From positions 124,001 through 188,000 of the forward strand of contig VTPO01000001.1 in assembly GCA_008638205.1 (NCBI GenBank): a DNA stretch of 64,000 nt, given 5' to 3'. The position numbers and the translations under genes are program-made. The notes under the pieces are model-generated. The model was not told the DNA's origin, made no database searches, and saw only the letters and a program-made list of their open reading frames with translations. The DNA comes from Pelagibacteraceae bacterium. Its GTDB lineage: Bacteria > Pseudomonadota > Alphaproteobacteria > Pelagibacterales > Pelagibacteraceae. The first letter of the stretch is position 1, and the number at the start of each line of letters is the position of its first letter. Positions 5,191-59,761 of this stretch are shown here, in pieces.

Positions 5191-6251
5191 AAGGGAGACT
5201 TAACTCCTACCGAATCTCCCAACTCATTAAGATCCTTTACTATATCCTCCGAAAGTATAACTCCCTGTTTTTTTATCATCTGTTCTTTTCTATACTCTGG
5301 TTCTCCAGGATGTAAGATTTCTTTAAAATTCTTAGCTAGTTTTAATTTTTTTACTTTCTTTATTCCATATTCCATTTTTTTTAAAAATTGATTTTTATTT
5401 TGGAAAAGATCTGCTTTTAAACAAATCATAAAATGTCCAACATTAGCTGGTCCTGAAAAATTATTTCCAAATTGATTTTTTACATTTCCACTGTGATTTG
5501 CTCCCGTAAAAATTCCTCCTATGATATCCATCATCCAGGATATACCTGCACCTTTCATTCCACCAAAAGGTAACATTATTCCTTCAAAGGCTTTTGCACC
5601 ATCATTGGTAGGTTTTCCAAACTTATCAAGGGCTAATCCGAAAGGTATTTTTTTTCCACTTTTAGCAGCAAATTTTAATTTTCCTCTAGCAACTGCTGAA
5701 CATGCCATATCTAATATAAAAGGTTTATTTTTATTTCCAGTTGGACTGCCAAATGCAAATGGAGCGGTACCAAAATGAGCAGCCATTGCACCATGTGGAG
5801 GTAATGCAGGAGAGGATGCGGTAAATACCCAAGCTATACAATTATTTTTAGTTGCAATTTCTAAATAGTTTGCAGCCATTCCGAAGTGATTACTATTATA
5901 AATTCCAGCAATTCCTACACCATATTTCTTTGCTACTTTTACACATTCATTCATTGCAATACTTGAAGTTATAAAGCCCAATCCATTATTCCCATCCACA
6001 TGTAGAATATTTCTTTGAATTTTTTTAATTTTAATTTTTGGTTTAGGATTGGCAACTTTTTTCAAAATTCTTTCGCAATAAATGGGAGCCCTCACTACAC
6101 CATGTGACCAGACACCTCGCACATCTGCTCGGACTAACCCCTTTGCTACTATTGACGCGTGTTTTTTGGAAAGTTTACATTTTTCATAAACAGTAGAAAT
6201 AAACTTTTCTAACTTATCAGGTTTTATTTTATAATTTTTTTTTATGCTCAT
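5187..6251 (-). CDS. Ldh family (malate/L-lactate/ureidoglycolate-type) NAD(P) oxidoreductase
   Basis: DVRGVWSHGVVRAPIY, VDGNNGLG, NSNHFGMAA motifs. Confidence 0.88.
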   Translation of the reverse strand: MSIKKNYKIKPDKLEKFISTVYEKCKLSKKHASIVAKGLVRADVRGVWSHGVVRAPIYCERILKKVANPKPKIKIKKIQRNILHVDGNNGLGFITSSIAMNECVKVAKKYGVGIAGIYNSNHFGMAANYLEIATKNNCIAWVFTASSPALPPHGAMAAHFGTAPFAFGSPTGNKNKPFILDMACSAVARGKLKFAAKSGKKIPFGLALDKFGKPTNDGAKAFEGIMLPFGGMKGAGISWMMDIIGGIFTGANHSGNVKNQFGNNFSGPANVGHFMICLKADLFQNKNQFLKKMEYGIKKVKKLKLAKNFKEILHPGEPEYRKEQMIKKQGVILSEDIVKDLNELGDSVGVKSPF

Positions 6252-36922: not shown

Positions 36923-37525
36923 ATGAAAAACGTAACAGACATAAAAGATAAAATTTTAGAAAAGATTTCTAAAGAAGAGGCTGAAAAAGCTATTAAAACT
37001 ATATTAAAATTTGTTGGAGAGAACCCTGATAGAGAAGGTTTGGTAGAGACTCCAAAAAGAGTAATTAAAGCATTTCAGGAGTATTTTGGAGGCTATCTAA
37101 TCAATCCTGACGATTATCTAGAAAAAACTTTTGGAGATGTGGAGGGCTATGATGACATGGTGATACAAAAAAATATTACTATTCATAGTCATTGCGAGCA
37201 TCATATGGCTCCCATTATTGGAACTGTACATGTCGCCTATGTTCCTGCTGAAAAAGTAGTAGGCTTAAGCAAACTTGCAAGAGTAGTAGATGCGTATGCT
37301 AGAAGGTTGCAAACTCAAGAGCGTTTAACCATGCAAATTGCCAACTCGATTTACAAAGGTTTGAAATCTCATGGATCTGCCGTGAGTATAGATGCGGAGC
37401 ATCAATGCATGACCACACGAGGAGTTAGAAAAGAAGGAGCAACAACCATCACTAATTATTTCACAGGTGTGTTTCGTGATAGTCAAAATCTTCAAAAAAG
37501 ATTTTTATCTTACATAAAAGATTGA
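36923..37525 (+). CDS. folE: GTP cyclohydrolase I
   Basis: GLVETPKRV, SHCEHHMAPI, VVGLSKLARVVDAYARRLQTQERLT, EHQCMTTRGV. Confidence 0.96.
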   Translation: MKNVTDIKDKILEKISKEEAEKAIKTILKFVGENPDREGLVETPKRVIKAFQEYFGGYLINPDDYLEKTFGDVEGYDDMVIQKNITIHSHCEHHMAPIIGTVHVAYVPAEKVVGLSKLARVVDAYARRLQTQERLTMQIANSIYKGLKSHGSAVSIDAEHQCMTTRGVRKEGATTITNYFTGVFRDSQNLQKRFLSYIKD

Positions 37526-41964: not shown

Positions 41965-42240
41965 ATGAACAAAAAACAACTGATAGCTAAAATTTCAGCA
42001 AGTATGAATCTTAGCAAGGCCGATGCAGAAAGAACATTTGATGGGATAACAAACATTATTTTAGATGCATTAAAAAATGACGATAATGTTAAAATAGCTG
42101 GTTTTGGTACTTATAAAGTAGCAAAAAGAAAAGCTAGACAAGGTAGAAACCCTAGAACAGGTGAAACTATCCAAATTTCAGCATCTCAAAAAGTTAAGTT
42201 TTTGCCTGCAAAAGCTTTAAAAGAGATGTTCAATAAATAG
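41965..42240 (+). CDS. HU family DNA-binding protein
   Basis: MNKKQLIAKISASMNLSKADAERTFDGI; GFGTYKVAKRKARQGRNPRTGE. Confidence 0.95.
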   Translation: MNKKQLIAKISASMNLSKADAERTFDGITNIILDALKNDDNVKIAGFGTYKVAKRKARQGRNPRTGETIQISASQKVKFLPAKALKEMFNK

Positions 42241-42262: not shown

Positions 42263-42302
42263 AAAAACAGCTCTAAATTAATTTTTTAGGGCTGTTTTTT
42301 TT
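42263..42302 (+). terminator. Intrinsic terminator after HU gene
   Basis: aaaaacagctctaaa / tttagggctgttttt stem plus T run. Confidence 0.85.
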
Positions 42303-42389: not shown

Positions 42390-43061
42390 ATGTTTTCAAA
42401 AGCACTAAACGAGAAATTAGATGAGTACCACTTATTAAAACACCCATTCTATCAAGCATGGAATGAAGGGAAATTAACTAGAGAAATTATCAAGGACTAT
42501 GCTGAGCAATATTATCAGCATGTAAAAGCATTCCCTCGATATATCAGTGCTACGCATTCTCTATGCGAAGATATTGAACAAAGAAAAGTTTTGTTAGAAA
42601 ATTTAAACGAAGAGGAAGATAGAGAAAACGATCATCCTAAATTGTGGAAAAATTTTGCATTAGCAATGGGTGCCGATTCAAAAGAGATTGAAACTAAACC
42701 ACAAGAAAAATTCACTTCTGAAATGATTGAAAATTTTTTCAAACAAGCAAGATCTAGTTATGCAGAAGGTTTAGGTTCTTTTTTTACTTACGAAAGACAA
42801 GTTCCTGAAATTGCAGAAACAAAAATCCAAGGATTAAAAAAACATTACGGAGTTACTACTGAGGAAGGTTTGATGTTTTTTGAAGTTCATAAAGGTGCTG
42901 ACGTAGTTCATAGAGAAGAGTGTGAAAAACTTCTTAACGAATTAACTGAAGCAGAACAAAAAAAAGCTGAGAATGCTGCTTTGACTACCGCTAAATTTAT
43001 GTGGAACTTTTTATCAGGTGTTTCTATTAAACATGGGATCCCTTTAAAAGTAGCCGCTTAA
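42390..43061 (+). CDS. CADD-like non-heme diiron protein, putative self-sacrificing pABA synthase (TenA/PqqC-like fold)
   Basis: HPFYQAW, EEDRENDHPKLW, FTYERQVPE, FFEVHKGADVVHREEC metal-ligand set. Confidence 0.82.
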   Translation: MFSKALNEKLDEYHLLKHPFYQAWNEGKLTREIIKDYAEQYYQHVKAFPRYISATHSLCEDIEQRKVLLENLNEEEDRENDHPKLWKNFALAMGADSKEIETKPQEKFTSEMIENFFKQARSSYAEGLGSFFTYERQVPEIAETKIQGLKKHYGVTTEEGLMFFEVHKGADVVHREECEKLLNELTEAEQKKAENAALTTAKFMWNFLSGVSIKHGIPLKVAA

Positions 43062-43079
43062 AAAATTTTACATTTATAA

Positions 43080-43116
43080 ATCGGTGTAACTAAATATAGT
43101 TGCACCGATTTTTTAT
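43080..43116 (+). terminator. Intrinsic terminator upstream of serC
   Basis: atcggtgtaact / agttgcaccgat stem plus T run. Confidence 0.8.
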
Positions 43117-43123
43117 TACAAGC

Positions 43124-44275
43124 ATGATTAAGAAACCAACAACAAAACCAAAGAACCCAAACTTCTCTTCAGGACCTTGTGCAAAGCGTCCAGGGTGGAA
43201 TATTCAAAATTTAAAAACAGATTCTTTGGGAAGATCACATAGAGCAAAACTTCCGAAGCAAAGATTGGTAGAAGTTATTAATCTTAGCAAACAACTTTTA
43301 AAAATACCTGCCGATTATAAAGTGGGAATTATAGCTGGTTCTGATACAGGAGCAATTGAAGCTGCTATGTGGTCCTTACTTGGAAAAACAGGAGTGGAGG
43401 TCTTGGCATGGGAGAGTTTTGGAAGTGATTGGGTAAAGGACATTAAAGAACAGCTTAAAATTAAAAATCTAACCATTCACCAGTCGGACTACGGAGATTT
43501 ACCAGACTTTCAAAAAATTAATTTTGATAATGATATTGTTTTTAATTGGAATGGAACTACTTCTGGAGTTTGTTTGCCAAACGCAGATTGGATAATTGAT
43601 AATAGAAAAGGTTTAACTATTTGTGATGCTACATCTGCGGTCTTTGCCATGGAAATGGATTGGCATAAATTAGATGTAACAACTTGGTCTTGGCAAAAGG
43701 TTTTGGGCGGAGAGGCTGCTCATGGAATGATAGCTTTATCTCCAAAATCCCTAGAGCGATTATCTGAGTATCAACCTACTTGGCCTATTCCTAAAATATT
43801 TAGGTTAGCAAACAATAAAAAAGTAATTGAAGGCATTTTTAAAGGAGAAACAATCAATACTCCTTCGATGCTTTGTGTAGAAGATGCGATTGATGCTTTA
43901 AATTGGATTCAATCTATTGGAGGAAGCAAAGGCTCTATTGATAAGTCACAATCAAATTTGCAAGTAGTTAAAACATGGGTTGAAACAAAGGACTGGATTG
44001 ATTTTTTAGCAAAAGATTCTTCAACTCTTTCTTCAACAAGTATTTGTTTAAAAATTACAGATCCTTGGTTCTTGGAATTGTCAGTAGATCAACAACAATT
44101 AAAAATAAAAGAAATAAATAGTCTTTTGGATAAAGAGCAAGTTGCTTTTGATATTAATGCATATCGAACAGCGCCACCTGGATTTAGAATATGGGGAGGT
44201 GCTACGGTAGAATCTTCAGATATTGAGACGTTATTGCCATGGATTGAATGGGGTTACCAAAGTATAAAAGAATAA
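43124..44275 (+). CDS. serC: Phosphoserine aminotransferase
   Basis: NPNFSSGPCAKRPGW; DATSAVFAMEMDWHKLDVTTWSWQKVLGGEAAHGM; start moved to ATG 43124 because TTG 43100 lies in the terminator. Confidence 0.92.
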   Translation: MIKKPTTKPKNPNFSSGPCAKRPGWNIQNLKTDSLGRSHRAKLPKQRLVEVINLSKQLLKIPADYKVGIIAGSDTGAIEAAMWSLLGKTGVEVLAWESFGSDWVKDIKEQLKIKNLTIHQSDYGDLPDFQKINFDNDIVFNWNGTTSGVCLPNADWIIDNRKGLTICDATSAVFAMEMDWHKLDVTTWSWQKVLGGEAAHGMIALSPKSLERLSEYQPTWPIPKIFRLANNKKVIEGIFKGETINTPSMLCVEDAIDALNWIQSIGGSKGSIDKSQSNLQVVKTWVETKDWIDFLAKDSSTLSSTSICLKITDPWFLELSVDQQQLKIKEINSLLDKEQVAFDINAYRTAPPGFRIWGGATVESSDIETLLPWIEWGYQSIKE

Positions 44276-45859
44276 ATGTTTAAAGTTTTAATAGCAGATA
44301 AATTGAGTGAGGAAGCAGTCAGAATTTTTACTGACAACGGTATCGAAGCCATTGTTAAAAATGGCCTAGATGAAGCTGCTCTCATTGAAGAGTTACAAGA
44401 TTATGATGGATTGGTAGTTCGTTCAGCCACGAAAGCTACCAAAAAAGTAATTGAGTCTTGTAAAAAATTAAAAGTAATTGGTAGAGCAGGTATTGGAGTT
44501 GATAATATTGATTTAGAAGCTGCCACTAACAATGGTAAAGTAGTCATGAACACACCATTTGGTAATTCTATTACTACTGCGGAACACGCTATTACTTTGC
44601 TTTTGTCTACTGCTAGGCAAATTCCTTTTGCTAGTCAAACAACCCATGAAGGAAAATGGGAAAAATCTTCTATCAAAGGAATTGAAGTTACAGGAAAATA
44701 TTTGGGAGTAATTGGATGTGGAAACATAGGATCTATTGTTGCTCAACGTGCTTTAGGTTTGCAGTTTAAAGTATTAGCATTTGACCCTTTTTTACAAGAT
44801 AAGAAAGCAGAAGAGTTGGGAGTAGAAAAAGTATCCCTAGATGATTTGTTTAAACGATCGGATTTTATTACTTTGCACACTCCTCTTACAGAAAAAACAA
44901 AAAATATTATTGGCAAAGAATCTTTTTCTAAAATGAAAAAAGGTGTACGAATTGTCAATTGTGCAAGAGGGGGGTTGGTAGATGAAGATGCTTTGAAGGA
45001 AAATTTAGAATCTGGCCATGTTGCTAGTGCTGCTTTAGATGTATTTGTAAATGAGCCCCCTAAAGATAGCTCTTTACTTGGAACTAAAAATCTTATTTTA
45101 ACACCTCATTTAGGAGCCTCCACTACAGAAGCCCAAGAAAAAGTTGCCTTACAAATTGCAGAACAAATAAGTGATTATTTAAAAACAGGCGCTATTATGA
45201 ATGCCGTAAACACTTTCTCTTTAACTGCAAAAGAATACACCTCCGTAAAGCCTTATTTGTCTCTATGTTCACAACTAGGAGGGTTTGCAGGACAGTTAAC
45301 AGAGAATGCTGTTAAGTCTATTCAAGTAGAATTTGAAGGGCAGGCATCTGAAATTAACACTCAACCACTTTTGCAGACTATTATTTATGCGTTACTGAAA
45401 CCGACAATGGATAATGTTAATGTTATAAATTCTATTTTAGTTGCAAAAAGTAAATCCATTGAAATTTCAGAAGTGAAACATCAAAAACAATCTGAATATC
45501 AAACATGTATTAAGCTAACAGTAACTACTGACAAGCAAAGCAGGTCTGTTTCAGGAACTTTGTTTGCTGGCAAACCTAGAATTGTAGAAATAAAAGGAAT
45601 AGAGATTGACGCAGGACTTTCAGCCCACAACTTATATATTAGCAATGAAGACAAACCTGGTTTTATTCGTGATTTATCTAAAGTGTTAGCAGATAACAAA
45701 ATTAATATTGGAACTTTCAATCTAGGAAGGAAGAACTCCGGTGGAGAGGCTGTAGCGCTTATTTCAACAGATAGCAAAATTGAAGAAGCAGTAATAGAAA
45801 GTATTAAAAAAATTCCATTGGTTATTCAGGCTAAATATTTAAGTTTTGATGAACAATAA
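44276..45859 (+). CDS. serA: D-3-phosphoglycerate dehydrogenase
   Basis: GRAGIGVDNIDLEAAT, GVIGCGNIGSIVAQRA, CARGGLVDE, HLGASTTEAQ, C-terminal ACT domain. Confidence 0.95.
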   Translation: MFKVLIADKLSEEAVRIFTDNGIEAIVKNGLDEAALIEELQDYDGLVVRSATKATKKVIESCKKLKVIGRAGIGVDNIDLEAATNNGKVVMNTPFGNSITTAEHAITLLLSTARQIPFASQTTHEGKWEKSSIKGIEVTGKYLGVIGCGNIGSIVAQRALGLQFKVLAFDPFLQDKKAEELGVEKVSLDDLFKRSDFITLHTPLTEKTKNIIGKESFSKMKKGVRIVNCARGGLVDEDALKENLESGHVASAALDVFVNEPPKDSSLLGTKNLILTPHLGASTTEAQEKVALQIAEQISDYLKTGAIMNAVNTFSLTAKEYTSVKPYLSLCSQLGGFAGQLTENAVKSIQVEFEGQASEINTQPLLQTIIYALLKPTMDNVNVINSILVAKSKSIEISEVKHQKQSEYQTCIKLTVTTDKQSRSVSGTLFAGKPRIVEIKGIEIDAGLSAHNLYISNEDKPGFIRDLSKVLADNKINIGTFNLGRKNSGGEAVALISTDSKIEEAVIESIKKIPLVIQAKYLSFDEQ

Positions 45860-46736
45860 AGACCAAGTCGTTACAATCGTACATTCCCATTCGCTTGCTA
45901 AAGAAGATTTATCTAAGTATTTTCAAAACACTCTTTCTCTTAAAATTAATAAAGAAATTAAGCTCTCCGATTGTGCGTATGATTTTTATTTAGAATCTAT
46001 AACCCCAGAGCAAAATCAAGAGTTAAGAAAAAAATGTTATCTAGAAAAGATAGATATTTGCATTCAGTTCTTAACCAGTAGAGAAAAAAAAATATTACTC
46101 TCAGATATGGATGCCACTATTATTGAAAACGAAACATTAGACGATCTAGTGAAACTTGGTGGCATAAAAACCAATATTGATGAGACCAGTAAATTAGCCA
46201 TGGAAGGCAAAATTGATATTAAGACAACATTAAATACGAGGCTGAATTATTTAAAAGGAAAATCCAAAACATTAATTGATCAAGTATTAGCAAGAATTAA
46301 ATTTCACCCAGGCTCTAAAGTGTTGGTCAAAACCCTTAATCAAAAAGGATTTATTACCAGCTTAGTGACAGGAGGTTTTGCTCCCATCTCCACTTTTGTT
46401 GGAGATCGTTTAGGATTTCAAAATGTTATTAGTAATGAATTTGAATTTAAAGACGATTGTTTCACTGGAAAGTATGCCCCAATCACCGCAGGAAAAAACT
46501 CAAAATTAGATTATTTAAACAAATTAACTGAAGAAAAAAATATTTCTAAATCTCAGGTAGTTGCGATTGGAGATGGGGCCAATGATCTAGGTATGTTAGT
46601 TAATTCTGGTCTTGGGGTCGGTTATCATGCCCACCAAATTGTAAAAGACAGTGTAGAAAATCAAATATTATTTAACGATCTTACAACACTTTTGTATTAT
46701 TTAGGAATATCAAAGAATGAATTTGATTTAAACTAA
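45846..46736 (+). CDS. serB: Phosphoserine phosphatase
   Basis: LLSDMDATIIENETLDDL, LVTGGFAPIS, GDGANDLGML. Confidence 0.95.
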   Translation: MMNNKDQVVTIVHSHSLAKEDLSKYFQNTLSLKINKEIKLSDCAYDFYLESITPEQNQELRKKCYLEKIDICIQFLTSREKKILLSDMDATIIENETLDDLVKLGGIKTNIDETSKLAMEGKIDIKTTLNTRLNYLKGKSKTLIDQVLARIKFHPGSKVLVKTLNQKGFITSLVTGGFAPISTFVGDRLGFQNVISNEFEFKDDCFTGKYAPITAGKNSKLDYLNKLTEEKNISKSQVVAIGDGANDLGMLVNSGLGVGYHAHQIVKDSVENQILFNDLTTLLYYLGISKNEFDLN

Positions 46737-59588: not shown

Positions 59589-59761
59589 TACACCCTCCTC
59601 ATTTTAAGTTAGGTGCGTTCCTTCGCTTTCGCTACTTCCGTCTTTTAAAAAAAAGATGAACGTTACAAATATGTTACTTATATTTAATCTTTTTCGCAAG
59701 AGATAAAAATCATTAGAAAATACCTTTTTTTTGAAGAAGAAAGTGAAATATTAGTGTGGTT

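Follow-up and report, generated by a model that had tools for sequence, protein, structure and literature searches.

A putative self-sacrificing pABA synthase of the CADD/PabS family in SAR11 bacteria and its apparent replacement in place by a pabBAC operon

Introduction

What supplies the pABA half of folate in a SAR11 bacterium whose genome lacks the usual pABA-making enzymes? Few groups of cells in the ocean and lakes are as abundant as SAR11 bacteria, and the question arises from a single gene in a 64,000-nucleotide stretch of one such genome (Pelagibacteraceae; contig VTPO01000001.1, positions 124,001 to 188,000), referred to here as the window. A preliminary description of this DNA, made from the sequence alone, proposed that the gene encodes a CADD-like protein with the residues for self-sacrificing pABA synthesis, and predicted a PabABC-independent folate route.

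Here, we follow up that proposal with family searches, a predicted structure, and surveys of related genomes. Taking the chemistry from characterised homologues, and family membership, residues, predicted fold, genome content and an exchange at a shared genomic slot from the present analysis, we argue that the window protein is very probably a pABA synthase of the CADD/PabS type that turns over once and alone supplies the cell with the pABA half of folate.

Results

A gene between HU and serC, probably transcribed alone

The gene lies between an HU gene and a serC-serA-serB cluster, and the features of the region are as follows:

36923..37525, + strand: folE, GTP cyclohydrolase I (pterin branch of folate), from its translation
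41965..42240, + strand: HU-type DNA-binding protein gene, upstream of CADD, from its translation
42263..42299, + strand: intrinsic-terminator-like hairpin between the HU gene and CADD
42390..43061, + strand: CADD/PabS-family predicted self-sacrificing pABA synthase, 223 aa (TIGR04305, PDB-chain matches, AlphaFold model)
43078..43111, + strand: intrinsic-terminator-like hairpin 3' of CADD, ahead of serC
43124..44275, + strand: serC-like phosphoserine aminotransferase, from its own sequence and its position before serA
44276..45859, + strand: serA, D-3-phosphoglycerate dehydrogenase (Pfam 2-Hacid_dh, PGDH_inter, ACT)
45846..46736, + strand: serB-like HAD phosphatase (Pfam HAD)

The CADD reading frame opens with ATG at 42390, has AGGAG about 8 nt upstream, and faces an opposite strand full of stops. 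Three terminator-like hairpins are present in the region (0.7 expected), and because two of them flank CADD, one on each side, the gene is probably transcribed alone. An operon with serCAB was rejected, both for the hairpin between CADD and serC and because serC is missing at most SAR11 CADD loci; the serC-like protein itself gave no Pfam match at E 1e-5. The preliminary description had pointed to folE about 5 kb away. The distance is right (4.9 kb upstream), but a folate operon is not what lies there: unrelated genes intervene, CADD stands alone, and with no sign of co-transcription a functional linkage to folE is unsupported. folE is close to CADD in 13 named loci, a neighbourhood confined to those with the HU-CADD context. 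Elsewhere in the window there is a glutamine riboswitch aptamer (59612-59664, minus strand; Rfam RF01739, 60.2 bits).

Family membership and predicted fold

The window protein scores 317.6 bits against the CADD/PabS model TIGR04305 (curated cut-off 200; E = 3.6e-95). A phmmer search of PDB chains matched it to Chlamydia trachomatis CADD (1rcw/8va9; E 3e-44) and Nitrosomonas europaea NePabS (9pj4; E 6e-43), so that, judged by sequence, its nearest solved relatives are the two characterised self-sacrificing pABA synthases. The structure predicted by AlphaFold from an alignment (pLDDT 91.7) is a heme-oxygenase-like helical bundle and superposes on 8va9 with TM scores of 0.91/0.95 and an rmsd of 1.4 Å. 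Given this fold match and the TIGR04305 E-value, the family assignment is not due to chance.

The protein shares its superfamily and fold with PqqC and TenA, whose structures superpose on the predicted model less well than that of CADD, and weak profile matches to PqqC, TenA and BesC raise the alternative that the protein is another heme-oxygenase-like oxidase – PqqC, a TenA thiaminase or another HDO – and makes no pABA. Membership was rejected for each of the three, with scores far under the cut-offs: PqqC (TIGR02111) at 49.7 bits against 240, TenA thiaminase II (TIGR04306) at 17.1 against 130, and BesC at 21.8 against 500. The sacrificed Tyr and Lys are retained in the window protein, and CADD and pabBAC exchange in place within SAR11 (see below); we regard the alternative as extremely improbable.

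Catalytic residues

The preliminary description listed nine residues whose spacing was said to match CADD with an offset of 6-7. All nine – Tyr21, Tyr37, Glu75, His82, Glu135, Lys145, His167, Asp171 and His174 – are present and align with the solved C. trachomatis and N. europaea enzymes. In the phmmer alignment residues 21/37/75/82 correspond to CADD 27/43/81/88 (offset 6) and 135/145/167/171/174 to CADD 142/152/174/178/181 (offset 7), the shift arising from a one-residue gap near residue 121. The predicted dimetal ligands, three His and three carboxylates (Glu75, His82, Glu135, His167, Asp171, His174), are complete. The claim that the sacrificed Tyr and the Lys donor are kept likewise held, Tyr21 and Lys145 aligning with Tyr25 and Lys159 of NePabS, which, as mass spectrometry showed, become Gly and aminoadipate, respectively (PMC11965152). 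Their codons, assigned from the phmmer alignment and from invariance, are:

42450..42452, + strand: Tyr21, predicted sacrificed tyrosine (= CADD Tyr27, NePabS Tyr25)
42822..42824, + strand: Lys145, predicted amino donor (= CADD Lys152, NePabS Lys159)

Three further aromatic residues of NePabS have counterparts in the window protein: Tyr41 (here Tyr37), which is essential, and Tyr45 (Tyr41) and Trp99 (Trp86), where a change to Phe lowers activity (PMC11965152). The nine listed residues together with Tyr41 and Trp86 are invariant in 91/91 aligned family sequences, comprising the window protein, 80 named SAR11 loci and ten others.

Metal-tuning positions

Two positions that tune metal choice in the family differ in state:

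42789..42791, + strand: codon of Tyr134 (= CADD Tyr141, NePabS Phe148), Tyr here
42876..42878, + strand: codon of Phe163 (= CADD Tyr170, NePabS Phe177), Phe here

CADD, with Tyr at 141 and 170, uses Mn/Fe, and NePabS, with Phe at 148 and 177, uses Fe/Fe; in NePabS, F148Y alone makes Fe/Fe and Mn/Fe about equally effective, and F177Y or the F148Y + F177Y double change leads to a preference for Mn/Fe (PMC11965152). The window protein has the tuning state of the F148Y variant, and this mixed state is found in 90/90 alphaproteobacterial sequences examined; the sole aligned sequence from outside Alphaproteobacteria (L178) has Phe at both positions. From this one mutational study we infer that SAR11 CADD should take either Fe/Fe or Mn/Fe; with one Tyr and one Phe it is also well suited to a clean test of what determines metal choice across the CADD/PabS family.

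pABA and folate genes in the window's genome

The genome (SAR11, Pelagibacteraceae; 1.12 Mb in 24 contigs, 99.97% complete) was tested for gene content by family searches. Its sole chorismate-binding enzyme is TrpE (554.4 bits, cut-off 517.7), with TrpG adjoining. No PabB was found, TrpE falling below every PabB cut-off, and neither of the two class-IV aminotransferases in the genome passes a PabC cut-off, one scoring as IlvE and the other as a D-amino-acid transaminase. The genome has folP and folK, and folE is inside the window, and therefore pABA is needed. The genome thus keeps the pABA-consuming enzyme without the usual pABA-making ones. The check for pabA, pabB and pabC that the preliminary description called for found no pabABC set, and the PabABC-independent route that it predicted gains support from this gene content (TrpE only, no PabC), with its chemistry taken from homologues.

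Distribution of CADD in SAR11 and the class

The named relatives of the window protein belong to Pelagibacteraceae: HIMB114 (81%), Fonsibacter/LD12, HIMB058 and many single-cell genomes. CADD scores over the cut-off in 107/197 family genomes. For a high-quality set tallied by hand (n = 77; at least 90% complete, at most 5% contaminated), CADD is present in 25, every one of which (25/25) has exactly one chorismate-binding gene, TrpE. Fifty of the 52 high-quality genomes without CADD belong to one genus, g3 (CADD in 0/50), where two chorismate-binding genes are found in 43/50 and three more genomes have only a lower, PabB-like E-value match. g3 has been sampled in depth and is missing from the named CADD loci, which suggests that it may be Pelagibacter itself. 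None of the high-quality genomes surveyed contains both CADD and pabBAC. Genome counts reflect relatedness, so few independent events lie behind the correlation between CADD and pab genes in SAR11.

The remaining two high-quality genomes without CADD are G305 and G328. The absence from G328 may reflect a contig break, as its MFS gene runs off the contig end. In G305, HU and serC meet cleanly across a gap of 167 nt (L180, G305:C17:112000-122000, 5575-5741) that contains no CADD, and the genome has no second chorismate enzyme. This Fonsibacter-like genome, 96% complete, is a candidate natural pABA auxotroph, or its CADD lies in the missing 4%.

G305 bears on a second alternative, in which pABA is taken up, or is made by promiscuous TrpE/TrpG together with a class-IV aminotransferase in the role of ADC lyase, and the CADD homologue does something else. 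With neither CADD nor a second chorismate enzyme, G305 suggests that external pABA may sustain some SAR11; moreover TrpE, TrpG, IlvE and D-amino-acid transaminase are all present in the window's genome, and class-IV aminotransferases are related to PabC. Yet none of these candidates scores above a PabB or PabC cut-off, sister genera retain trpE plus a separate pabBAC, which indicates that TrpE is usually insufficient, and the full catalytic conservation across the clade argues for selection on pABA chemistry. We consider such a route very improbable, and synthesis by CADD the preferred reading.

In a survey of the class, CADD was over the cut-off in nine genomes, seven of them outside Pelagibacteraceae. 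Four of the seven (G119, G134, G214 and G115), all of them 99% complete or more, gave no match whatever to a PabB profile, and the other three (69-79% complete) have no PabB and a single weak match at about 73 bits. As a separate observation, serC was found in the window and in g1, g2 and g228, and not found in g3, g225 and g227; serine synthesis and pABA synthesis divide SAR11 differently.

CADD and pabBAC occupy the same slot

In a g3 genome (G207), an operon of overlapping pabB, pabA and pabC genes begins with the gene for the second chorismate enzyme. In CADD-containing genera a common arrangement is metC-MFS-CADD-(NT)-aprM-aprB-aprA (L183, L107); the corresponding order is metC-MFS-pabB-pabA-pabC-aprMBA in G207 and G303 (both g3) and in G300 (g235), and metC-MFS-NT-pabBAC-aprMBA in G296 (g232). 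pabBAC is therefore in the metC-MFS/aprMBA slot in 4/4 pabBAC genomes examined in full, from three genera without CADD. A same-strand MFS gene is directly upstream of CADD in 46/80 named loci; CADD follows HU, as in the window, in 16/80, with serC next in 14/16. All SAR11 CADDs form one group (support 99/96) that includes loci of both contexts, which is most simply explained by a single CADD in the ancestor of SAR11. On this simplest reading, and with the direction of change inferred, the ancestral gene moved in one lineage, and pabBAC took over its slot in another.

The swap could instead be a coincidence at an insertion hotspot, uninformative on function. Other genes do vary at the slot – a 126-aa nucleotidyltransferase-like gene (NT) and a different 3' side in L184 – and the window's own lineage has CADD elsewhere, between HU and serC. 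The consistent position of pabBAC in the fully examined genomes, the frequency of MFS directly upstream of CADD, and the lack of any surveyed high-quality genome with both systems count against this explanation, which we judge unlikely, and we favour replacement in place.

The g3 PabB scores 231 bits against TIGR00553, whose cut-off of 328 is too strict here, and its best NCBIfam match, PabB-clade2, is also below cut-off; its identity as PabB is assigned from the pabB-pabA-pabC operon and the separate TrpE in the same genome. The PabC candidate (L093, 2848-3624) passes Pfam Aminotran_4 and has no NCBIfam match at E 1e-10. With PabB below all NCBIfam cut-offs and PabC unmatched, automatic annotation may miss the operon. 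An MFS transporter adjoins CADD or pabBAC in many SAR11 genomes (L184 1903-3135, L181 1973-3091, L205 4763-6028), and its gene stands alone in the window's own genome. pABA or folate could be candidate substrates.

Discussion

By analogy with its characterised homologues, the window protein would activate O2 at the dimetal site (Glu75, His82, Glu135, His167, Asp171, His174), and a radical would travel through nearby aromatic residues, with Tyr37, Tyr41, Trp86 and Tyr134 as candidates, to Tyr21. The Tyr21 side chain would then be cleaved from the backbone and oxidised to a carboxylate, with Lys145 as the source of its amino group; the protein would then be spent, and the pABA product would pass to dihydropteroate synthase (FolP). 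The yield of NePabS in vitro is <0.1 pABA per monomer (PMC11965152).

A broader proposal is offered tentatively: most SAR11 genera outside the Pelagibacter type may make folate with a suicide enzyme using Fe/Fe or Mn/Fe, and a three-gene operon may have replaced that enzyme in place in the Pelagibacter-type lineage. If so, the price is one 223-residue protein per pABA, and the cheapest genome (one gene rather than three) is paired with the costliest enzyme, a trade of genome size against protein cost. A reaction described in a pathogen and one nitrifier would become a major natural route if most SAR11 genera depend on a self-consuming enzyme, and the split between genera would show, as a natural experiment, under what conditions a single-use enzyme can be afforded.

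Comparison with known systems

This type of pABA synthase has already been published, together with its chemistry and its presence in a free-living organism, N. europaea (PMC11965152, PMC13108848), so that a CADD/PabS route outside intracellular pathogens was known before (PMC11965152). The CADD family was tied to folate in a 2007 survey that named CT610 and in which Pelagibacter is absent (PMC1971073). We found no report of CADD/PabS in SAR11 or Pelagibacter in the literature searched, which covered only a minority of subscription papers. The enzyme kind is known; the SAR11-wide distribution and the replacement in place appear to be new.

The window protein resembles NePabS (NE1434, 9pj4) in sequence family, sacrificed Tyr and Lys, metal ligands, the essential Tyr37 position, the Tyr41 and Trp86 positions, Phe at position 163 and a free-living host. 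It differs in its residue at position 134 (Tyr, against Phe in NePabS), in missing an extra NePabS loop of about 9 residues, and in a gene that sits between HU and serCAB and not beside glyA. NePabS complements an E. coli pabABC deletion (PMC11965152).

C. trachomatis CADD (CT610; 1rcw, 8va9) shares about 35% identity with the window protein, an rmsd of 1.4 Å on the predicted model, the nine identical residues and Tyr at the 134/141 position. The window protein has Phe where CADD has Tyr at 163/170, and its gene is not clustered with fol genes. C. trachomatis CADD reportedly has a role in host apoptosis; SAR11 has no host to act on, and there is no reason to expect such a role of the window protein.

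Canonical PabB-PabA-PabC, as in g3, g232 and g235, has its product in common with CADD and, in SAR11, also its genomic slot. It differs in comprising three catalytic enzymes, unrelated in sequence, that act on chorismate and glutamine, and it is absent from the window's genome, where a single predicted single-turnover protein would very probably take its place.
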